38,678 nucleotides of DNA, taken from a virus. How positions within the stretch are numbered: position 1 is the first letter of the stretch; the number at the start of each line of letters is the position of its first letter. Where the stretch lies: the IMG/VR virus record IMGVR_UViG_3300032087_005120, positions 1 to 38,678 of that record; one strand, written 5' to 3'. The notes beneath the pieces are model-generated. The model saw only the letters and a list, made by a program, of their open reading frames with translations, made no database searches and was not told where the DNA came from. A program made the position numbers and the translations under genes. Below, in pieces: positions 5,328 through 37,825 of the stretch.

Positions 5328-6809
5328 CTAAGAACCATAAAATGCAATCTTACGTCGAGGACGTTCTTCTATCTCCTCGTCGTAATCGTGAACCAATGCA
5401 CCGAACTGTCGATATCGCATCAACGCTTGTGTCATCGAATCCACATAGTCATCGTTTCTACCATAAGGGAAAGCGGCACATTCTTCAATAACTTCTTCTG
5501 CCCACTTAAACGGTGGATACCAAATCATTCCTGCTTCAAATAACGGTGCTACGGAGTTGACTCTCACTAATTTGTCGTTTCCTCTGCTCGGTGTGAAGTT
5601 GATCACGGGAATTCCCATGGCTTGCAGTTCGTGTGTGAGGGGCATACCCGTTGCTTTCGCTTCAATAATAATTTGTTCGGGCTGCCAATACTGGTTTTTC
5701 TCTAAAGCGATTCTTTTTAGCTCGGGAAAGTCCCACCGCCCACGGTCCGCTTCCATTAACAGCAAATTTTGCTTACCTGTCATCTCATTATAGAAAACTC
5801 CCCAGGTTGTAATCGCAGAATAGTCCGCTGTTGTCTTGGATGAGAACGCAGTATCGTAACTTTGAATGATATATTGCAACGGTGGCTGATCTTTGTCCCA
5901 TAATTGCCACCATTCACGCTTAATTATGGAAGTTTCTTCGGATGTGGGCTGTTGTTGCCACTGTGCATTCCATTTAGCCACGGGCAGTGAGGCTTTCACC
6001 GCTTCTAATTGATCTTTTTTCCAGAATTCTGGCCATTGAGGGGTGCCGTCGTCCATGAGCGCAGGGAAATCGACAATCTCCCACTTGTCTGCGAGCGGAT
6101 CTTTGGCTTGAGCCTCGATCAAACGCTCTGTTAAGTCGTCTTCTGACCAACGAGTCATGACTACAACGATACTTCCCCCAGGTTGAAGACGCTGACGAGG
6201 ACCTGAAGTGTACCATTCCCATGCATTCTCCATCGCAGTCTTACTTAAAGCGTCTTGTTCGGAGTGTGGATCGTCGATAATGAGCAAATCTGCACCACGA
6301 CCGGTTATAGATCCACCGACACCTGCTGCAAAATACTCCCCTCCGTGGTTCGTTTCCCATCTTCCAGCAGCTTGAGAGTCGGCTCGCAGCTCTGTGTCGG
6401 GGAATATGGACTTGAATTCGTTCTCGTTCATCAAATTTCTGACCTTACGACCAAAACGATAGGCTAGCTCGGCTGTATGGGTGGTTTGGATAATCTTTAA
6501 TTTAGGGTTATTGCCCATCATCCAGGCGGGAAAGAGATAACTGGCAAATTCTGACTTAGTATGTCGGGGTGGCATATTCACAATCAATCTAGAAATTTTT
6601 CCATCCCTGATGGCTTCTAATTTTTTAGAAATGATTTTATGGTGCCTCCCCTCTATGAAGTCGGGCCAAATGTTTTTTACAAAATTTCCAAAGGAGTCCC
6701 TAGAGTTCCTTGCAGATTCAAGTTGTACTTTCTTTAGCTCAAGCTTCTTGAGAAACAAAAGTCTCTCTTCTTGAGACATAGAAGACAAATCTGGTAGTAA
6801 ATCGCTCAT
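5328..6809 (-). CDS. terL: Terminase large subunit (packaging ATPase/nuclease)
   Basis: 493 residues. A deviant Walker A is visible at residues 79-87 (MPPRHTKSE), Walker B at about 173-183 (LLIIDDPHSE), and the coupling motif as VVVMTRWSEDDL. The nuclease half shows a first acidic residue in QSYDTAFSSKTTADYSAI, a second in IIIEAKATGMPL and a third in NDDYVDSMTQAL. The ATPase translocates DNA into the prohead through the portal and the RNase H-fold nuclease cuts the concatemer. It reads into the portal gene after 13 bases. The small subunit is unusually far away (11296-11901), separated by the AT-rich amidoligase cassette and nuclease genes. The surrounding DNA is clearly richer in G+C than that cassette. 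Confidence 0.95.
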   Translation of the reverse strand: MSDLLPDLSSMSQEERLLFLKKLELKKVQLESARNSRDSFGNFVKNIWPDFIEGRHHKIISKKLEAIRDGKISRLIVNMPPRHTKSEFASYLFPAWMMGNNPKLKIIQTTHTAELAYRFGRKVRNLMNENEFKSIFPDTELRADSQAAGRWETNHGGEYFAAGVGGSITGRGADLLIIDDPHSEQDALSKTAMENAWEWYTSGPRQRLQPGGSIVVVMTRWSEDDLTERLIEAQAKDPLADKWEIVDFPALMDDGTPQWPEFWKKDQLEAVKASLPVAKWNAQWQQQPTSEETSIIKREWWQLWDKDQPPLQYIIQSYDTAFSSKTTADYSAITTWGVFYNEMTGKQNLLLMEADRGRWDFPELKRIALEKNQYWQPEQIIIEAKATGMPLTHELQAMGIPVINFTPSRGNDKLVRVNSVAPLFEAGMIWYPPFKWAEEVIEECAAFPYGRNDDYVDSMTQALMRYRQFGALVHDYDEEIEERPRRKIAFYGS

Positions 6810-7090
6810 GTTTTCTGTGTATATTTATATACTAGCACTAACTATATACTACTTCTAATTTTAGGGGGTACCCCTCTTTTTTCAATAGTAATGTATTACT
6901 TCGTAATTCCTTAGTATCTCTTAACCAAAAAAAATTTCATTCTTCAATTTTTTTTGGTTAGGCACGCAAAAAAAAATTTTCATGCACAGGAGCAAAAAGT
7001 AATAATTTATTACGGAGCTGCGATTTGTGGTAATTTTTGGGGGGTGGGTGTTCCTGCACCAAATGCACAGGAACAGGAACACCGAATTAA
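6810..7090. repeat. Intergenic stretch with AT palindromes and a 10-bp inverted repeat
   Basis: No gene is seen in these 281 bases. They hold two members of the dispersed AT palindrome: GTAATGTATTAC at 6888-6899 and GTAATAATTTATTAC at 6999-7013, the latter with perfect 7-base arms. A perfect inverted repeat GGTGTTCCTG/CAGGAACACC lies at 7047-7056 and 7074-7083, and an alternative inner pairing GTTCCTG/CAGGAAC (7050-7056 with 7068-7074) is possible. It lies just past the stop of the amidotransferase gene but no T-run follows on either strand, so it is not a standard terminator. A poly-A/T tract lies around 6925-6980. This is the left border of the amidoligase cassette. Confidence 0.7.
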
Positions 7091-7873
7091 TTATCCTACT
7101 AATTTTTTACGATAGTTTTTAATTGTTTCTATTAATGGATAAGTATCCTCATTATAGACGCAGTGATCTATAAACATTTCAATTTCACTATCTGACATTT
7201 TTTTGAGTTCTATATCAGTAGGGGTTTCAATGAAATCATAATCAAAGCTATTACTATCATAGAGCGATAAACTTTTATTAGGATATAAATAACTAAAAGC
7301 AGTTTTTCTTGTATCCCAATAATCATTTGAAAACCAATTAGCGCCTTTATAGTTTCCTCTTTTCTCATTGATGATAATAAATTTTCTTGATTTGTTATCT
7401 AAGAAAATCATTTTATCTGATCCAATATGTTCAGCTAATTCTATTTGATAATTATTATTTAGAATTACATTTGGATTGTTCTTAAACAATGGTTTTAAAT
7501 TATGTTCATTGAAATGCCATGTATCCGAACAATTTTTATGAACTAATGGAATTGGCAATCTTGCGCCATTGTGCATCATACCAATAGTTCTATTATCTTG
7601 ATTGTAAGATATAAAAGGGTGGCAATTCTTTTTATTGATCTTTCCCTCAGTTTTATATCTAAAGTGCATAGCTATTGTATCAGTATTTTTTTTATGATCA
7701 TTGAAGAAAGTTTTCACTTCATTAAAATCATTTGGTAAAAACTTATCTGAAACAAAGTTATTTTTTTTGTTTAAATACATTACCCCAAAGCCATCAGAAT
7801 TTCTGTTGTATGCAGTTTCCATGTCATCAATGGATAATGATTTAATATCGTTCGCTAAAATAATTAAACACAT
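7091..7873 (-). CDS. Class II glutamine amidotransferase-like (Ntn hydrolase)
   Basis: 260 residues. It begins Met-Cys-Leu-Ile, so removal of Met exposes an N-terminal Cys, the nucleophile of class II glutamine amidotransferases. Family-like segments follow: NRNSDGFGVMY (about 24-34), AMHFRYKTEGKIN (about 68-80), and GMMHNGARL (near 103). These enzymes release ammonia from glutamine, or hydrolyse related gamma-glutamyl amides. The start lies 2 bases after the amidoligase stop, so the pair is an operon. In the amidoligase literature (Iyer, Aravind and colleagues, recalled) such a pairing suggests synthesis or trimming of an amide-linked product. The gene is very AT-rich compared with the terminase next door, suggesting transfer. 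No partner synthetase domain is fused. Confidence 0.75.
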   Translation of the reverse strand: MCLIILANDIKSLSIDDMETAYNRNSDGFGVMYLNKKNNFVSDKFLPNDFNEVKTFFNDHKKNTDTIAMHFRYKTEGKINKKNCHPFISYNQDNRTIGMMHNGARLPIPLVHKNCSDTWHFNEHNLKPLFKNNPNVILNNNYQIELAEHIGSDKMIFLDNKSRKFIIINEKRGNYKGANWFSNDYWDTRKTAFSYLYPNKSLSLYDSNSFDYDFIETPTDIELKKMSDSEIEMFIDHCVYNEDTYPLIETIKNYRKKLVG

Positions 7874-7875
7874 TT

Positions 7876-9318
7876 TTAATTCTCACTTTCTAATTCTTGA
7901 TTAATTAATTCTGAATTATTTATTCTGAAATCGTGAACTATGTTCTTGAAATCATTGTAAATAAATTTCCATTCTTCAATATATTTTAAATGTTCGAAGT
8001 GTTGTTTATCATCTAAAAATATTAAAAGATTAGCATAATCCTTGTGAACATTTTTTAACAACCAATCAAAATAATTATGGTGATGTAAATCATCAGCATT
8101 ATTTTTATGATTTGATCTAATCCATAAATTCACAGTGTGAACAAATTCTAAATATCTAAAAAAAGAAATTTGTTTTATGTTCGATCTAAATATTCTCACT
8201 TCGATTGTATCTTTATTATCAAAGTTAATAACAGAATATTTTTCACCATGAGTTCTAATTGGTGAATGAAAATCAACCATTGGTTTAAATCTACAATATT
8301 GATTTTCATCACGACCAGAAATTTCAGTAATCAAATCTCTGTTTTGTGGATTGTTATAAAAACAATTTAAACGTTTCATTTGATTATCTGTAAAAGCTTT
8401 TCTTGAAAAGTGAATATGAATACCACAATTATAACCATGATAAGCTTTAACATATTGATTAGGATTAAGATTAAAAAACTTATTCCAAAATGTTTTCTTG
8501 TGATAATGAAACGTTGCATTTGTTGATACTAATTCAAATCCATGATCTTGATGTAAACTACCGTCATGTTTACAAAGAATTGAGTTCATAGTATCACGGA
8601 ATTTTTCAACAATGTCATATCTTGAAATAACTTCATGTCTTGTATGAAGTTCAACCTCAATGCCATAAAATAAAACACTATCGATTAATACAATTGCATT
8701 TTGTATTCCCACTTCAGCGACTGCCTTGCCTAAAAATTCAAGAATAATTTTTGCGTTGTATGCGTCTAAATAACTTGAATTATCTTCTTCATTCGCTTCA
8801 CAGTGATAATCATCATGGTGCGTGTCATCATGGTAATCACAATACCAACCTGTACTACTTAAACAATCATGGCAAAGATAATCATTATCACTTTCATAAT
8901 AAGTGCGTCTTTCATCAGTATGAAAAACGTTTTCACAATCTTCACAAGTGAAATAATCATTTTCATAAGCTTCTTGTGAAATTGTTTTATTATCATTGGT
9001 AGTTAAAAAATAATCAGCAACATAAAACTGATTTTCTTCATAACATACAAAGAGATTAATATTAGAATTATCTAATAATCCCTCAATTCTATTATTAAGA
9101 ATATCAGCAATTGCGTTTATTCTTTTTTTAATAATAGTTCTTGTATTATGGATTGAGTAATCAAAAAAACCATTTTGAAATTTAATGTTTAATCGATCCT
9201 CAATTTTTCTTTGATAGCCCCTAAGGATATTTTCCATTAGTTCGCATTTTGTGAAATCCTCAGTATGTTCATCTAAATAAACTTTTGTGAGTCTTTCTAT
9301 TACATTTCTAATATTCAT
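7876..9318 (-). CDS. Amidoligase (GS-fold COOH-NH2 ligase) with N-terminal Cys-rich domain
   Basis: 480 residues. Residues 125-175 form a metal-binding-like region with CxxC pairs (C125/C128, C149/C152) plus C160 and several His. The C-terminal half shows amidoligase hallmarks in order: GIEVE at 219-223, DGS at 252-254, GFELVST at 260-266, CGIHIHFS at 298-305, a GRDENQYCRFK segment, and a late TIEVRIFRSN. This glutamine-synthetase-like family is predicted to form amide bonds between a carboxylate and an amine using ATP, making peptide-like metabolites or modifying proteins; the substrate here is unknown. It is co-transcribed with the amidotransferase gene downstream and diverges from a 76-residue acidic protein gene. 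A purine-rich ribosome site (AAAGGA) precedes the ATG. About 28% G+C in sampled rows, well below the portal/terminase region. Confidence 0.8.
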   Translation of the reverse strand: MNIRNVIERLTKVYLDEHTEDFTKCELMENILRGYQRKIEDRLNIKFQNGFFDYSIHNTRTIIKKRINAIADILNNRIEGLLDNSNINLFVCYEENQFYVADYFLTTNDNKTISQEAYENDYFTCEDCENVFHTDERRTYYESDNDYLCHDCLSSTGWYCDYHDDTHHDDYHCEANEEDNSSYLDAYNAKIILEFLGKAVAEVGIQNAIVLIDSVLFYGIEVELHTRHEVISRYDIVEKFRDTMNSILCKHDGSLHQDHGFELVSTNATFHYHKKTFWNKFFNLNPNQYVKAYHGYNCGIHIHFSRKAFTDNQMKRLNCFYNNPQNRDLITEISGRDENQYCRFKPMVDFHSPIRTHGEKYSVINFDNKDTIEVRIFRSNIKQISFFRYLEFVHTVNLWIRSNHKNNADDLHHHNYFDWLLKNVHKDYANLLIFLDDKQHFEHLKYIEEWKFIYNDFKNIVHDFRINNSELINQELESEN

Positions 9319-9416: not shown

Positions 9417-9647
9417 ATGAAATATTACTTAGTTAGTGAAACAAATGTCGAAAGACAAGATTTATATACTTTACATAATCATACTGAACATTTTTTATTA
9501 AAAGTAGAAAATGAAATTCAATATTTTGATTTTGATGATGATGATTATAGTAATCATTATAATAAACATGAATTAACTGAACTAAATGAAAATCAGTTTA
9601 ATTGTTTAAAAGGAACTTTAAAAATTCGGGAAAAATTATATCCGTAA
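9417..9647 (+). CDS. Acidic small protein of unknown function (76 aa)
   Basis: 76 residues, rich in Asp, Glu, Asn, His and Tyr, with a run of aspartates (YFDFDDDDYSNHYNKHEL). A GAGG ribosome site lies 8 bases before the ATG. It diverges from the amidoligase operon and shares its AT-rich composition, so it probably belongs to the same acquired cassette. Its stop codon is the TAA inside the AT palindrome at 9644. I recognise no family. Because it is small, acidic and encoded beside a ligase that joins carboxylates to amines, it could be a substrate or tag, but that is speculation. Confidence 0.65.
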   Translation: MKYYLVSETNVERQDLYTLHNHTEHFLLKVENEIQYFDFDDDDYSNHYNKHELTELNENQFNCLKGTLKIREKLYP

Positions 9648-10553
9648 TAATTTATGACTCAAAAAAATTTCGGGGCGTCAGGGCAAAGTAATAAAATATT
9701 ACTAAAATGCTCATGCGCCCCCAGGTGTTCAGATTTTAAAAGTAATAAAATATTACAAATCACACGCACAAGCTCACGCAGCGGGAGCAGCTCTCCGTGG
9801 GCCGAGAAAAATTCACAAGCACAGGCTCAAGCACAGGCACAGGACGCAGGCGCACGCACAAGCACACCTGGCACCAGGTCAGCTCAAAAGTAATAAAATA
9901 TTACTCCACAGCAGAAGCTGCTGGAGCCTGGGATGGTAGTTCAAAAAGTAATAATTTATGACGAATCACGGCTCACACCGGCAGCCCAGATCCTGGGTAA
10001 AAAGTAATAAAATATTACTGACAAGCACAAGCGGCCCATCCAGCTGCTGTGGTTGGGGTAATAATTTATGACCATTTTTTATTTGTAGCTCCAGGTCTTT
10101 TTTGATAGATTATGGGAGAATATATAGAAAGGATTTGTTATGACTATAACAAAGAAACACTTAAACGAACTAGCTGACATAGTTTATGAAGCTAGAAAAT
10201 TATGCGACGGGAACAACGACGCTTTGGCTCACTTTGTGGATTTAAAAATACAAATGTTTGCCAAGCGACACGCACCCAACTTCGATCACATTAAATGGAA
10301 CGAATACATGCACAAGCTGAAGAAGGCAGAGGACAGACCCGAACCTAATAAGCAGTATAGACTGGTCGGGAAGTCTGGAGAATCTAGCATAGCCCGGGGC
10401 AACACCTGGGCAGAATCAGAAATAAAGTAATAATTTATGACTGACTCAAGGCTCACGACCACGGGTCAAGAGATTGCCCGACTCAGAAAAAAAATGCTCC
10501 GTAGTGATTCAGCTGCGGAGCAAGCTGCCATCTGGAAAGTAATAAAATATTAC
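9644..10553. repeat. Cluster of nine ~15-bp AT palindromes in G+C-rich spacers
   Basis: Two forms alternate. Form A, GTAATAAAATATTAC, is at 9688, 9742, 9890, 10004 and 10539. Form B, GTAATAATTTATGAC, is at 9644, 9948, 10058 and 10427. Four copies between 9890 and 10072 are spaced 54-58 bases. The spacers are strikingly richer in G+C, full of CACAAGCACA- and CAGGCTCAAGC-like words, and contain hairpins such as ACCTGG-CA-CCAGGT (9866-9879) and CAGCAG-AAG-CTGCTG (9909-9923). Form B contains both TAATAA and ATG. It ends the genes at 9647 and 10430 and supplies the ATG of the reading frames at 9654 and 10437. Between 9648 and 10139 I see no secure gene. A low-complexity frame at 9654-9893 (79 codons, Gln/Ala-rich) and a 38-codon frame from 9958 are probably by-products. 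Confidence 0.8.
10140..10430 (+). CDS. Hypothetical protein (96 aa)
   Basis: 96 residues with an AAAGGA ribosome site 7 bases before the ATG. The N-terminal two thirds look helical (KKHLNELADIVYEARKLCDG, ALAHFVDLKIQMFAKRH). The C-terminal segment is polar (PEPNKQYRLVGKSGESSIAR). The stop codon is supplied by the form-B AT palindrome at 10427. I recognise no family. It lies in the same direction as the following 53-residue gene and between palindrome copies, so the two may be co-transcribed from AT-rich sequence just upstream (10073-10130). Confidence 0.65.
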   Translation: MTITKKHLNELADIVYEARKLCDGNNDALAHFVDLKIQMFAKRHAPNFDHIKWNEYMHKLKKAEDRPEPNKQYRLVGKSGESSIARGNTWAESEIK

Positions 10554-10598
10554 CTGGAGCTGGAGTCCCAGGGCAAATTTTTTCTCCCAAAATTCTAA
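10437..10598 (+). CDS. Small helical protein starting inside the AT palindrome (53 aa)
   Basis: 53 residues starting at the ATG within the form-B palindrome (10427-10441), six bases after the TAA of the preceding gene. The protein looks genuine: a charged amphipathic helix (GQEIARLRKKMLRSDSAAEQ) followed by AAIWKVIKYYLELESQGKFF. The form-A palindrome at 10539 lies inside the gene and encodes VIKYY in frame. Its TAA overlaps the stop codon of the convergent nuclease gene (CTAA). A perfect hairpin TGCTCCG/CGGAGCA lies within the coding sequence. No Shine-Dalgarno precedes it, so translation would depend on coupling to the upstream stop. Function unknown. Confidence 0.5.
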   Translation: MTDSRLTTTGQEIARLRKKMLRSDSAAEQAAIWKVIKYYLELESQGKFFLPKF

Positions 10599-11170
10599 GG
10601 AACATGCACAAGCACACGCCCGATAGCAGGCTCAAGCACATGCGTCCATGGTTGGTCGACCGTGAACAAGGGTTCCACATCTTTGTAGTTGGTCACAAGC
10701 TCACGCACCACGGCCCCTGGCCAAAAGAAAATCTTTCTCTCTTCCACCCCCTTGGCCATAATAAAATTATCTTGGCATAGAGAATAACGCTTTAAATTCC
10801 ATGAAATTTGGAAAGGTGAGAGATCTAGTTTGTTTCCTTTTGTTAGCTTCAATTCACACCAAAAAGAAATATTCTTCTTTAAAGATTTATCTACATAAAC
10901 TCCCAGTAAATCGGGTATTCCTGGGGTTCCGTAAGTTTCAATTCTTGTCCAATAAATGTTCGGAGTTATCGACCTAACATTCTTCCAAAAAGTTGATTCC
11001 CTTCCTCGCTTTACGGAAGGGGTTGCCGTTTTCTTTTTTCTGTCTTTTGGTGATTGTTTCTCTTTTTTCAACAATGCGAATCTCTTCTCCTTCGACAAGA
11101 CAAAGTCGGACTCCAAGTTCTTTTTGAGTAGGTTTGAGTTTGTTTCCCGACCCACCAACCGACTTGCCAT
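10595..11170 (-). CDS. VRR-NUC-like PD-(D/E)XK nuclease, start uncertain
   Basis: The recognisable domain begins near residue 54 of the longest ATG frame: RGRESTFWKNVRSI, then YGTPGIPDLLGVY, FWCELKLTKGNKLDLSPFQISW. The GIPD...ELK combination is the metal-binding and catalytic core of PD-(D/E)XK/VRR-type nucleases, which in phages process DNA during recombination or packaging. The ATG at 11170 produces a 197-base overlap with the upstream nuclease gene; no ATG, GTG or TTG lies between 11010 and the domain, so the long overlap, a rare start or a frameshift must be invoked. The C-terminus (PWTHVLEPAIGRVLVHVP) runs into the CACAAGC-type low-complexity DNA and may have been appended by that repeat. 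The neighbours are the small terminase and a second nuclease. Confidence 0.7.
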   Translation of the reverse strand: MASRLVGRETNSNLLKKNLESDFVLSKEKRFALLKKEKQSPKDRKKKTATPSVKRGRESTFWKNVRSITPNIYWTRIETYGTPGIPDLLGVYVDKSLKKNISFWCELKLTKGNKLDLSPFQISWNLKRYSLCQDNFIMAKGVEERKIFFWPGAVVRELVTNYKDVEPLFTVDQPWTHVLEPAIGRVLVHVP

Positions 11171-12466: not shown

Positions 12467-12673
12467 ATGACGGAGAAAGTTCTAGAATTTAAAAAACCGA
12501 AAGAACGAAAAACTATTAAAGATAAGTCGTTCGTGGCAAGATTACCGTATCCTTTAACAATTCATGTCTTAGTGGATATCGTGGAAAGAATGGGAATCGA
12601 GCATGAAGGAACAGTCCTACCTGGGCTAAAGTACATATCACGAGAAGTCGTGAAGAAAGAAATGGAGGAGTAA
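12467..12673 (+). CDS. Hypothetical protein (68 aa)
   Basis: 68 residues with AAAGGA 5 bases before the ATG. The N-terminus is basic (LEFKKPKERKTIKDK), followed by ARLPYPLTIHVLVDIVERMG and a charged C-terminal helix (ISREVVKKEMEE). It starts 11 bases after the preceding gene and is followed immediately by the 39-residue gene. No known family is recognised. Early-gene position and small size suggest a host-takeover or regulatory factor, which is inference only. Confidence 0.6.
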   Translation: MTEKVLEFKKPKERKTIKDKSFVARLPYPLTIHVLVDIVERMGIEHEGTVLPGLKYISREVVKKEMEE

Positions 12674-12800: not shown

Positions 12801-12986
12801 ATGGAAACAATCATTCTTTTATTACATCTTTGTTTACCGAATGACGGACAAACAGAATGTCTTTTCATGAAAGAAGAAATGAAAAGTCAGCAACTATGCG
12901 AACAGAAAGTCGAAGAACTCAATCAAGACTTTATGGATTTAGATGTGTTCAATGCATCATGTGAAAGGAGCAGCTATGAATCTTAA
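12801..12986 (+). CDS. Small Cys-containing exported-type protein (61 aa)
   Basis: 61 residues beginning with a short hydrophobic stretch (METIILLLHLCLPNDGQTEC), then Cys at regular intervals (C20, QQLCEQK, NASCERSS). The pattern of hydrophobic N-terminus, then Cys...Cys...Cys, resembles the 67-residue protein at 19062-19265, so both may be secreted or periplasmic mini-proteins with a disulfide. No strong ribosome site is present; coupling to the preceding gene 7 bases away is likely. It overlaps the next gene's start by 11 bases. Confidence 0.5.
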   Translation: METIILLLHLCLPNDGQTECLFMKEEMKSQQLCEQKVEELNQDFMDLDVFNASCERSSYES

Positions 12987-13584: not shown

Positions 13585-14223
13585 ATGTATAAATACTTAG
13601 ATATACCTGGATGGTTTAATATGCACGACGCCTATATGAACCTCGTTAAATACTGTGAAGACGGTGATGATATTGTTGAGATCGGTTGTTTTGCAGGGAG
13701 ATCCACCAGATTTCTCATGGATAGCTTAGATTACGCAGGAAAACACAAGGTTAAAGTGCATGTGATTGACACTTTTGAAGGGTCGGGTATGGAACACGCA
13801 GAAGTTAACTTAAACACCATGTACGACGATTTTATGAGGAATTTAGGGGACTATATTGATCAAGAAAGGGTGGTAGTCAATGTCAACAGATCAGATAACC
13901 AAAACATTCTTAATTCTTTTGACGATAACAGTGTTTTTGGGGTTATCGTAGACGGGGCTCACACTATGGAAGCCGTTCAAGATGATGTCGAGAACTGGTG
14001 GCCGAAGATAAAAGACGGTGGAATCATGGTCGGAGATGATGTAGACTGGGAGTCCGTCATGCAAGGTGCCGGAAAAGGATTTGCGAAATTTGGAATTGAT
14101 AGATTTAATGTACTCAAAGGTCGAGAAGCATGGTTCGCAGCAATAAAGAACGATCAAAACGACCAGATAGCGATGAGTCTAAAGCTAGTCCCAGGTCAGA
14201 ACTCTATGAAATTAGGTGGCTAG
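13585..14223 (+). CDS. SAM-dependent methyltransferase, class I fold
   Basis: 212 residues. Motif I is clear: VEIGCFAGRST at 31-41, the SAM-binding glycine loop. It is followed by VIDTFEGSG (60-68), a segment often seen in the Methyltransf_24/cephalosporin-hydroxylase-like group. Later come FGVIVDGAHTMEAVQDDVEN and KIKDGGIMVGDDVDWE, the strand-4/5 region with Asp/His that can bind a metal. The family methylates small molecules, sugars or proteins; a nucleic-acid target is less likely because no target-recognition domain is present. GGAGG precedes the ATG. Its 3' end overlaps the next gene by up to 94 bases. Confidence 0.8.
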   Translation: MYKYLDIPGWFNMHDAYMNLVKYCEDGDDIVEIGCFAGRSTRFLMDSLDYAGKHKVKVHVIDTFEGSGMEHAEVNLNTMYDDFMRNLGDYIDQERVVVNVNRSDNQNILNSFDDNSVFGVIVDGAHTMEAVQDDVENWWPKIKDGGIMVGDDVDWESVMQGAGKGFAKFGIDRFNVLKGREAWFAAIKNDQNDQIAMSLKLVPGQNSMKLGG

Positions 14224-19314: not shown

Positions 19315-20517
19315 ATGTTAAAACACTTAGATCTATTTAGTGGTATTGGTGGATTTAGTTTAGGATTAGAATCTGCTGGATTAGTTGAAACAGTTGCGTT
19401 TTGTGACTTTGATAAATACTGTCAGCAAGTCTTAAATAAAAATTTTCCTGGTGTACCAGTCTATGGAGATGTAAAGGAATTAAATCATGACAAACTTAAA
19501 GCAGACGGAATTAATCAAATCGACATCATCACAGGAGGATATCCTTGCCAACCTTTCTCCGTCGCAGGTCGCAAAAAAGGTGAGCAAGATCCGAGACATG
19601 TCTGGCCAGAAATGTTTAGACTTATCAAAGAACTCCGACCTACTTGGGTCATTGGAGAAAACGTTGGTGGACACATTAAACTCGGTCTCGACACCGTACT
19701 CGAGAACTTGGAGAGTGAAGGCTACTCCGCAAGGACGTTTAGTATTTCAGCTTCTAGCGTCGGTGCCAACCACAAAAGAGAAAGGGTCTGGATTGTGGGC
19801 TACTCCACAAACAACAGACGGAACGAGAGCACATCAAATTCGCAGACCAGACGAGCTTTCGGACAAAGCGAAGAAGGGGGGATGCGCCAACTTGAGAGAA
19901 CAAGTGATGTGGAGAACTCCAGACGCAGTATCGGGAGGGAGCAATCTTCCAGGAATTCAGAGGGCATTGGACGCTGGTCATTTGAAACGTCCGAGTGGTC
20001 AACCGATACAAATCAGATTGCACGATCAAGTGAGGGAGCCGAGACTATGGCCAACAGCACAAGCGAGAGATTGGAAGGGGAGTTCAGGTCGAAGTTACAA
20101 GGGACTGGAGAGGGACTTACCGACGGCAGTGAAACAATCAATTCTGATGTGGCCGACTCCGACGAGATGCAACGACAGCTTTTATGTGGACAACAGTCCG
20201 AACAAAGACAAGAGACATTCGAGGGGACTAGCAACGGAAGTGGAACACCGTGCGAAGACTGCGATGCTACCAACTCCGACTGTCCAAGACTCAAAGAACA
20301 ACGGAGGTCCTTCACAACAGAAGAGAAACACGAAGCCTCTCAATGCGGTCGCTGGTGGGACGTTGAACCCGACGTGGGTAGAGTGGCTCATGGGGTACCC
20401 AAAAGGGTGGACAGACTTAAATGTTTAGGAAATTCTGTTGTACCTCAAATACCATATGTGATAGGATTAGCGATAAAAGAAACGATAGAGAATGAGCAAA
20501 GTATACGTAACGACTAA
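19315..20517 (+). CDS. DNA cytosine-5 methyltransferase
   Basis: 400 residues with the ordered C5-methyltransferase motifs: DLFSGIGGFSLGLE (6-19), catalytic PC in GGYPCQPFS (Cys78), ENV (115-117), KRERVWIVG (154-162), and the C-terminal VDRLKCLGNSVVPQI. It transfers a methyl group from SAM to cytosine C5, probably to protect phage DNA. The region where the target-recognition domain should lie (about 165-345) is unusual: low complexity, Ser/Arg/Glu-rich, with repeated V/M-x-D/N-S elements (GYSTN, VENSRR, MANSTS, VADSDE). The same bases encode another protein in the next frame. No Shine-Dalgarno is seen before the ATG; TTGCAA (19267) and a TATTTATTATAT tract suggest a promoter very close by. 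Confidence 0.85.
   Translation: MLKHLDLFSGIGGFSLGLESAGLVETVAFCDFDKYCQQVLNKNFPGVPVYGDVKELNHDKLKADGINQIDIITGGYPCQPFSVAGRKKGEQDPRHVWPEMFRLIKELRPTWVIGENVGGHIKLGLDTVLENLESEGYSARTFSISASSVGANHKRERVWIVGYSTNNRRNESTSNSQTRRAFGQSEEGGMRQLERTSDVENSRRSIGREQSSRNSEGIGRWSFETSEWSTDTNQIARSSEGAETMANSTSERLEGEFRSKLQGTGEGLTDGSETINSDVADSDEMQRQLLCGQQSEQRQETFEGTSNGSGTPCEDCDATNSDCPRLKEQRRSFTTEEKHEASQCGRWWDVEPDVGRVAHGVPKRVDRLKCLGNSVVPQIPYVIGLAIKETIENEQSIRND
19487..20428 (+). CDS. Second protein nested out of frame in the methyltransferase gene (WPTP-repeat type)
   Basis: 313 codons without a stop, entirely inside the methyltransferase gene in another frame. AAGGA lies 8 bases before the ATG, a better ribosome site than the host gene's own. 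The product has SGQKCLDLSKNSDLLGSLEK, SRTWRVKATPQGRLVFQLLA, then repeats of W-x-T-P type (LWATPQ, MWRTPD, LWPTAQ, MWPTPT, MLPTPT), and a C-terminal LNPTWVEWLMGYPKGWTDL. I recall this combination from many phage proteins labelled hypothetical or 'methyltransferase'. Each W-x-T-P uses the same bases as a V/M-x-D/N-S element of the methyltransferase. Sampled rows rise to about 45-53% G+C, against 33% at the gene's start. Either a real overprinted gene or a mirror image of methyltransferase conservation. Confidence 0.6.
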   Translation: MTNLKQTELIKSTSSQEDILANLSPSQVAKKVSKIRDMSGQKCLDLSKNSDLLGSLEKTLVDTLNSVSTPYSRTWRVKATPQGRLVFQLLASVPTTKEKGSGLWATPQTTDGTRAHQIRRPDELSDKAKKGGCANLREQVMWRTPDAVSGGSNLPGIQRALDAGHLKRPSGQPIQIRLHDQVREPRLWPTAQARDWKGSSGRSYKGLERDLPTAVKQSILMWPTPTRCNDSFYVDNSPNKDKRHSRGLATEVEHRAKTAMLPTPTVQDSKNNGGPSQQKRNTKPLNAVAGGTLNPTWVEWLMGYPKGWTDLNV

Positions 20518-37270: not shown

Positions 37271-37825
37271 TCAACCGATTATATTGCCTAAATCACAAGT
37301 CAAAGATAGTTTACTACTTTCGATATTAATTACTTCGTGTTCTGTATTTTTATCAAAAAATAAACAATCTTGGTTCTTTAGCGTTCTTTTTTCGCCCCCA
37401 ATTAACCACTCAGACTCACCATAAATATTCTTTACTAAGACAGCATAATCATGAGTATGTTTAGGAAAAGATACTGATTTTCTACCACTTCCTAAATAGA
37501 GATTACAGTTACGAAAACTTTTACAGTAACTATTAATCAGTTGTTGAATAATCCAAATATCTCTAGTCAAACCACCACAGTTAGACAATATTAACGTATA
37601 TCCCTCTTCATAAGTTTTTATACATTTTTCTGAGTCTAAATATCCATCTTGTTTAAAAAAATCTTGATGCTTGATTCCCTTTTCTTTTATACATTCAAGA
37701 GAGGGTTGCCCATCATGATACTCTTTTGGCCATCTCATTCTGTCAAGAAATCTTTCAAGAATCATTTCTTCTGTTAAATTTATTTTTTTATTATTAATAG
37801 TTTTAACTAAATTGTCTAAAGACAT
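37271..37825 (-). CDS. Cupin-fold protein in the virion gene cluster (184 aa)
   Basis: 184 residues. The C-terminal half fits the cupin metal-binding pattern: FPKHTHDYAVLVKNIYGESE (HxH plus later acidic residue) and, after WLIGGEKRTLKNQDCLFFDK, NTEHEVIN (third His, then N). Such proteins are metal-dependent oxygenases, isomerases or simply binding proteins. The N-terminal part (NKKINLTEEMILERFLDRMR) is helical. No 2-oxoglutarate-binding arginine can be assigned, so I do not call a dioxygenase. Placed between virion genes with adjoining start and stop (base 37825). Role unknown. Confidence 0.6.
   Translation of the reverse strand: MSLDNLVKTINNKKINLTEEMILERFLDRMRWPKEYHDGQPSLECIKEKGIKHQDFFKQDGYLDSEKCIKTYEEGYTLILSNCGGLTRDIWIIQQLINSYCKSFRNCNLYLGSGRKSVSFPKHTHDYAVLVKNIYGESEWLIGGEKRTLKNQDCLFFDKNTEHEVINIESSKLSLTCDLGNIIG

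Follow-up and report, generated by a model that had tools for sequence, protein, structure and literature searches.

As far as the accessible parts of the papers concerned go, an amidoligase (AL) paired with a glutamine amidotransferase is reported for phages MEP401 and MEP402 and for over 30 marine viral genomes (PMC10580990). RIO1-like podoviruses (PMC5498523) and UFV-P2 (PMC3890496) are reported to have larger sets, in which AL and the amidotransferase are joined by gamma-glutamyl cyclotransferase (GGCT), a second ligase and an ATP-grasp enzyme; C. clostridioforme prophages are listed with AL and GGCT (PMC11318856). Cell-wall modification has been suggested for phiEco32-type phages (PMC10580990, PMC5498523), and is a prediction there too. 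Phage amidoligase sets have long been annotated with guessed roles (cell wall, superinfection), and no tested substrate was found in the literature as available in part. In this study, an AL gene, the adjacent gene of a class II glutamine amidotransferase-fold protein (GAT) and a GGCT gene were analysed on the whole 38,678-base contig of a marine bacterial virus, IMGVR_UViG_3300032087_005120 (the window). The same gene combination has been published for other phages; its arrangement in the window phage is new. We read it, tentatively and a little short of even confidence, as a regulated accessory module that would make and break gamma-glutamyl-type amide bonds.

The window resembles the putative peptidoglycan-modification cassette of RIO-1-, phiEco32- and LUZ24-like phages (PMC5498523, PMC3890496; parts of both papers) in that a single phage encodes AL, GGCT and a glutamine amidotransferase. 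As described in those parts, the RIO-1/LUZ24-type cassette also includes a second ligase, which in UFV-P2 is PF14395, along with an ATP-grasp enzyme, and the window AL differs from its counterpart there by a Cys-rich domain. In the window only AL and GAT are adjacent, whereas GGCT lies about 7.6 kb upstream of AL, so that the three genes do not form a single cassette. No ATP-grasp family was found in the window open reading frames (ORFs) scanned, which were part of all ORFs; PF14395 was found in 0 of 9 records scanned, but control genomes gave no match either.

Gene layout and enzyme families

The window contig carries genes for TerL, portal protein, DNA polymerase, primase and helicase. Pelagibacter phages HTVC027P (63%) and HTVC023P (59%) were among the best matches of its TerL in the phage collection, which points to a probable SAR11-type host. 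The features of the three enzymes are as follows.

7876-9318, minus strand: AL, amidoligase, 480 aa; predicted glutamine synthetase (GS)-fold ligase with a helical and Cys-rich (zinc-type) N-terminal region
8800-9045, minus strand: Cys-rich region of AL, residues 92-173; C125, C128, C149, C152, C160 and C173 invariant in the viral set
7879-8682, minus strand: predicted catalytic GS-fold part of AL, residues 213-480; GxExE, DGS, GFE, H301, R336, N365 and ExRxF
7091-7873, minus strand: GAT, class II glutamine amidotransferase-fold protein of Cys2 Ntn type, 260 aa
16873-17346, minus strand: GGCT, gamma-glutamyl cyclotransferase, 157 aa, just after the same-strand helicase gene; tracks AL-GAT

AL lies upstream and GAT downstream on the same strand, with 2 nt between the AL stop and the GAT ATG, in agreement with the operon proposed in a preliminary description of this DNA made from the sequence alone. 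Purifying constraint acts on each of the three genes (pN/pS about 0.16-0.26), which are therefore not chance frames.

The family of AL (PF12224, GS-fold amidoligase) was shown indirectly, through a homologue, profile-profile comparison and structure. In tblastn, AL matched a gene annotated "putative amidoligase enzyme" in MW202733 (E 6e-17) and genes of MEP401 and MEP402, and the MW202733 homologue passes PF12224 (30.0 versus a cut-off of 22 bits). PF12224 also gave weak matches in 11 of 33 close AL homologues (best E 0.00091), and AL scored 57 bits against phrog_16683. Profile-profile alignment (hhalign) of AL with PF12224-positive gut-phage ligases gave E 8.3e-6 and a probability of 83.5, with GIEVE placed on GVEVE, CGIHIH on CGVHIH, and TIEVRIF on TVEFRLF.

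Across 30 AL sequences, among them those of three phages known as isolates or complete genomes, there was no variation at G219, E221, E223, D252-S254, G260-E262, H301, R306, N326, R336, N365, E373, R375 and F377. The motifs GIEVE (G219, E221, E223), DGS (D252, G253, S254), CGIHIH (H301) and TIEVRIF (E373, R375, F377), as well as the Cys-rich N-terminal domain, had been pointed out earlier and proved real, the latter with six Cys residues invariant in the viral set. Comparison of PDB sequences with the AL profile gave weak zinc-finger matches and nothing more.

A structural model of AL (pLDDT 82, pTM 0.61) had PafA, YbdK and Dop as its top Foldseek matches in the PDB (E about 3e-4 to 1e-3). With VIA-align, the model was superposed on the YbdK-type ligase 1tt4 (Z 11.7, 220 residues, root-mean-square deviation (rmsd) 4.1), S. 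coelicolor GS 4bax (Z 11.2, 183 residues, rmsd 3.7), plant glutamate-cysteine ligase 2gwc (Z 10.6, 221 residues, rmsd 3.8) and Dop 7oyh (Z 10.1, 216 residues, rmsd 4.4). Since these four matches span less than 2 Z, the superfamily was assigned and not the closest member. Among viral proteins, the fold matches were uncultured-phage amidoligases and one "LIM domain containing protein"; a literature search on LIM domain and amidoligase gave no paper. By its model, AL has the GS fold, and the conserved residues E221, E223, E262, H301, E373 and R375 fall in its predicted strands; we take their roles to be those of the corresponding positions in glutamine synthetase. The preliminary description had called for a check for missing ATP and metal ligands; the residues expected of a GS fold were present by sequence and by fold. 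AL is predicted to be an ATP-dependent amide ligase.

GAT passes PF13230 (GATase_4; 25.8 versus a cut-off of 23 bits). Its C2, the exposed Cys2 noted earlier, is invariant in 23 sequences together with R72, T75, G77, N102, G103 and D117; by comparison with GlmS, these are presumably the nucleophile and the glutamine-pocket positions. The GAT model (pLDDT 71.5, with residues 182-214 poor) was superposed on the Ntn hydrolase EgtC 4zfl (Z 11.8, 170 residues, rmsd 4.4), PurF 1ecb (Z 11.5, 179 residues, rmsd 3.6), GlmS 3ooj (Z 11.2, 171 residues, rmsd 3.6) and asparagine synthetase B (Z 7.0). As modelled, GAT is of the Ntn amidotransferase fold.

GGCT passes PF06094 with 47.9 bits (cut-off 22.8). 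Its YGSN motif (Y16-G17-S18-N19) and E80 are invariant in 14 sequences; E80 aligns with a position occupied by Glu in human GGCT 2pn7 and by Gln in 3cry, and is presumably the catalytic residue. With these matches, the three enzyme assignments of the preliminary description were upheld, that of AL by the indirect route given above.

AL and GAT as one unit in a hot-spot beside TerL

Relatives in IMG/VR were collected as loci from scans with AL, GAT, GGCT, TerS (terminase small subunit), TerL, helicase and MT24 (a Methyltransf_24 protein), to which the window and the three phage loci collected first were added; the resulting 329 sequences were collapsed by shared identical 800-mers into 179 groups. 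The hot-spot that holds AL-GAT has two flanks.

5328-6809: TerL, one flank of the hot-spot
10595-11170: O191, the other flank

Both AL and GAT were present in 47 of the 65 groups with either gene, and in all 18 groups with a single one the contig ended at most 110 nt from the expected start of the partner. Thirty-four groups span O191 to TerL: 22 have AL plus GAT, 11 have GP88 (PF17338) instead, one has neither, and a single partner was found in 0. In 2 of the 22 groups the pair, as a unit, is inverted relative to TerL. AL and GAT are inseparable, forming one unit in the IMG/VR relatives. Copies of the two genes at relative loci L182:6-1264 and L145:5318-7121 match in several pieces and look frame-shifted.

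In relatives without AL-GAT, the hot-spot is filled by GP88 and other small genes, and a GP88 gene also lies between the terminase genes of Pelagibacter phage HTVC027P; the loci concerned are L136:3615-4205 and L333:5169-5768. Reading of the replacement genes of the GP88-state contigs for a functional clue revealed none resembling amide chemistry.

Inseparability, adjacency and a fixed order are also what the subunits of one enzyme would show. AL and GAT could therefore be a two-subunit, glutamine-dependent amidating synthetase, in which GAT provides ammonia and AL with ATP turns a carboxylate of the target into a carboxamide, for example in peptidoglycan stem peptides, GGCT being a separate or downstream step. 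The complete glutamine pocket retained by GAT, the GlmS and PurF folds and profiles, which are as close as EgtC, and the cell-wall modification suggested in the literature (PMC10580990, PMC5498523, as accessible in part) fit such a synthetase. Pure amidation would leave the co-variation with GGCT described below unplaced, and in all three gut phages examined AL occurs without GAT, although another amine is possible there. We regard this explanation as a serious, if less probable, alternative.

Genes and palindromes that vary with the pair

Further features tracking AL-GAT in the window are as follows.

12467-12670, plus strand: S1, 68-aa protein of no known family, only alongside AL-GAT
12801-12983, plus strand: S2, 61-aa Cys-containing protein with a hydrophobic N-terminus, mostly alongside AL-GAT
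9644-10072, no strand: seven 15-bp near-palindromes (GTAATAAWWTATKAC) in an array, separated by GC-rich spacers
10427-10441, no strand: extra palindrome copy
10539-10553, no strand: extra palindrome copy
6999-7013, no strand: palindrome copy downstream of GAT

Counted by contig, as several loci may come from one contig, 13 of the 13 assessable for both features were concordant (AL-GAT with GGCT 7, GP88 without GGCT 6, discordant 0); counted by groups, the numbers were 11, 7 and 0. For another 45 groups, in which the hot-spot was out of view, GGCT alone could be judged; it was present in 13 and absent from 32. Contig 3300020194_001587, with the GAT side and no GGCT, was considered as a counter-example and rejected, the helicase match being missing there too. 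In a four-gene tree the hot-spot state switches at least 2 times on supported branches, and GGCT switches along both times; two state changes are needed in the TerS tree (39 rows) as well. The linkage of GGCT to AL-GAT is thus consistent, but based on two events. Its membership had been called tentative, the gene being in a different operon; it tracked the presence or absence of the pair in all 13 assessable contigs.

A census of ORF families from helicase to TerL in the 13 contigs found AL, GGCT and S1 in 7/7 AL-GAT contigs versus 0/6 GP88 contigs, GAT and S2 in 6/7 versus 0/6 (the missing case of GAT being a contig end), and GP88 in 0/7 versus 6/6. Among loci spanning TerS to MT24, which are redundant, S1 was present in 53/53 with AL/GAT and 0/22 with GP88, while another 71 show neither AL/GAT nor GP88. 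S2, which has conserved cysteines, was seen in the majority of contigs with AL-GAT and in none of those with GP88.

With two independent switches in the tree, GGCT, S1 and the palindromes might simply hitch-hike with AL-GAT in two whole-segment exchanges, AL-GAT being the sole functional unit; the occurrence of AL-GAT without GGCT in other phages (see below) would agree with this. However, MT24, O191 and TerS, the core genes in between, are present in both states (all 13 census contigs), several small accessory ORF families of the same stretch are mixed between the states, and GGCT and AL pair independently in gut phages. Hitch-hiking is considered unlikely.

Ten exact matches of GTAATAAWWTATKAC were found in the window, all between TerL and O191 around AL-GAT (positions 6999, 9644, 9688, 9742, 9890, 9948, 10004, 10058, 10427 and 10539). 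At up to 2 mismatches there are 25 strand-wise matches versus 1.56 expected, a post hoc comparison, as the pattern was first read off the sequence. The relatives served as an independent check: at up to 1 mismatch, the hot-spot contained 4-10 palindromes in 22/22 AL-GAT groups, 0-1 in 11/11 GP88 groups and 0 in the group with neither gene. Spacers are mostly 20-48 bp, with a GC content of 0.37-0.67 versus 0.37 for the window, and vary, whereas the palindrome is constant; in the inverted cassettes the palindromes flank the pair on both sides. The array may be an operator array, a recombination site or a partition-like site; that S1 reads it as an operator array is guesswork. No paper was found in which such a gene set is linked with S1 or with an array of palindromes, those terms not having been specifically searched.

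Two ideas on S1 were rejected. As a Pup-like tag it should carry a conserved terminal Glu or Gln, and its C-terminus varies (EE, REE, EKDDE, EKEK); a ribbon-helix-helix fold, suggested by a mere motif impression, was unsupported by PDB, Pfam and NCBIfam profiles.

Other genes in the window include a Mom-like DNA modification protein (PF25680, 14405-14911), MT24 (13585-14223) and a DNA methyltransferase (19315-20517). The Mom-like gene was rejected as a required partner, because none of these three genes is confined to one hot-spot state. A 313-aa ORF (19487-20428) in another frame is nested entirely within the 400-aa methyltransferase ORF, and a cupin/JmjC-like protein (37271-37825) is encoded in the minus-strand gene block at the right end of the window.

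Other phages and the proposed chemistry

The OM43 phages MEP401 and MEP402 resemble the window in having adjacent homologous AL and GAT, with 28% identity each over the matched part in MEP402. They differ in lacking GGCT and, in the stretches examined, a palindrome array. AL and GAT are adjacent in MW202733 also, these three being complete records. A search of the literature for pelagiphages with an amidoligase yielded PMC10580990 alone.

A relative of the window GGCT was present in 43 phage records, and at least 40 of the 43 also carry a gut-phage-type amidoligase among the matches listed (best 60 of 87), the two lists of records having been intersected by eye; two Bacillus phage G records and one 4.4-kb fragment were not among the 60. 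In the three of the 40 gut-phage records examined, the amidoligase gene lies at most 4 genes upstream of GGCT, and no GAT was found there by whole-record alignment, PF13230 and PF13522, with positive controls matched. The Ca. Heliusvirales gut phages are thus like the window in having a PF12224 ligase beside a homologous GGCT and unlike it in having no GAT (3 records) and a ligase without the N-terminal zinc-type part. Heliusvirales-type gut phages (L330, L331 and L332, about 6449-6655) have a separate 67-68-aa CxxC...CxxC protein after GGCT, as if the fused zinc part of AL were a separate gene there.

Co-occurrence across phages, as proposed in the preliminary description, was therefore borne out for AL with GAT and, in the assessable contigs, for GGCT; a strict three-way linkage fails in MEP401, MEP402 and MW202733, which are without GGCT, and in the three gut phages without GAT. 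As MEP401, MEP402 and MW202733, the three gut phages examined and the window relatives show, AL occurs with GAT alone, with GGCT alone, or with both. Judged from family assignments, every AL examined is accompanied by at least one enzyme of a family acting on gamma-glutamyl bonds. Such a swap of partners would be expected if the bond made by AL were a substrate of GAT as well as of GGCT, hence the model of adding and removing a gamma-glutamyl-type group.

The reaction steps, the target and the roles of S1 and the array in this model are proposed as follows. AL would bind ATP and metal in its GS-fold site, activate a carboxylate as an acyl-phosphate (glutamate, through its gamma-carboxyl, being the most likely donor), and join it to an amine on a target chosen by the zinc-type N-terminal part. 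GAT would open the gamma-glutamyl bond through Cys2, freeing the target, or alternatively, if a true amidotransferase, supply ammonia to AL; GGCT would release the glutamyl group as 5-oxoproline. The AL-GAT cassette would carry its own palindrome array, possibly read by S1.

Several observations weigh against this reading. The window AL gave nothing above cut-off in Pfam, and S1 had no match in PDB, Pfam or NCBIfam profiles, nor in the phage collection. The Z values of EgtC, PurF and GlmS are tied for GAT, so that hydrolase and ammonia donor are not separable by structure; although GAT shares fold and Cys2 with EgtC, an Ntn hydrolase of ergothioneine metabolism, identity is 11%, and in NCBIfam the weak matches of the window GAT were PurF and GlmS, with none for the EgtC model. 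GGCT was looked for in complete MEP401, MEP402 and MW202733 and found in none of the three, and is therefore not required wherever AL-GAT works. With two independent switches only, a sign test for the GGCT linkage cannot reach significance. The swap of partners is also not proof, as the ligases are distant and the pattern would also arise if AL were fed with ammonia in one lineage and with an amine in another. The cell-wall role published for phiEco32-type phages is neither supported nor excluded by this analysis.

Production of a small gamma-glutamyl metabolite, peptide-like or a thiol-type conjugate, in place of modification of a macromolecule is quite unlikely. In ergothioneine synthesis, EgtA and EgtC form a comparable pair of ligase and Ntn hydrolase, and the models of AL and GAT lie near glutamate-cysteine ligase (Z 10.6) and EgtC (Z 11.8), respectively. 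The conserved zinc-type domain of AL, on the other hand, fits a macromolecular target better, and no further biosynthetic enzyme tracks the module among the hot-spot-region families of the census.

A bolder version of protein modification, which seems very improbable, would be a self-contained, mobile and self-regulated marine-phage system. In it a PafA-like ligase, targeted by its zinc-type domain, would attach a glutamyl group or a small protein to something in the host; GAT and GGCT would undo this, and S1 would bind the palindromes or itself be the ligated peptide. PafA and Dop of pupylation and YbdK-type carboxylate-amine ligases do have the GS-fold ligase core in common with AL; no Pup homologue was seen with the window AL, however, and the S1 C-terminus is unconserved.

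Unrelated phages combine AL with either GAT or GGCT, which restricts the probable chemistry to bonds of gamma-glutamyl type or to amides. The two hot-spot states amount to a natural experiment: the set is present in some of the related phages and absent from others, and its three enzymes move together with S1. The palindrome array may reveal how the module is controlled, and a defined small gene set makes the target of phage amidoligases testable.

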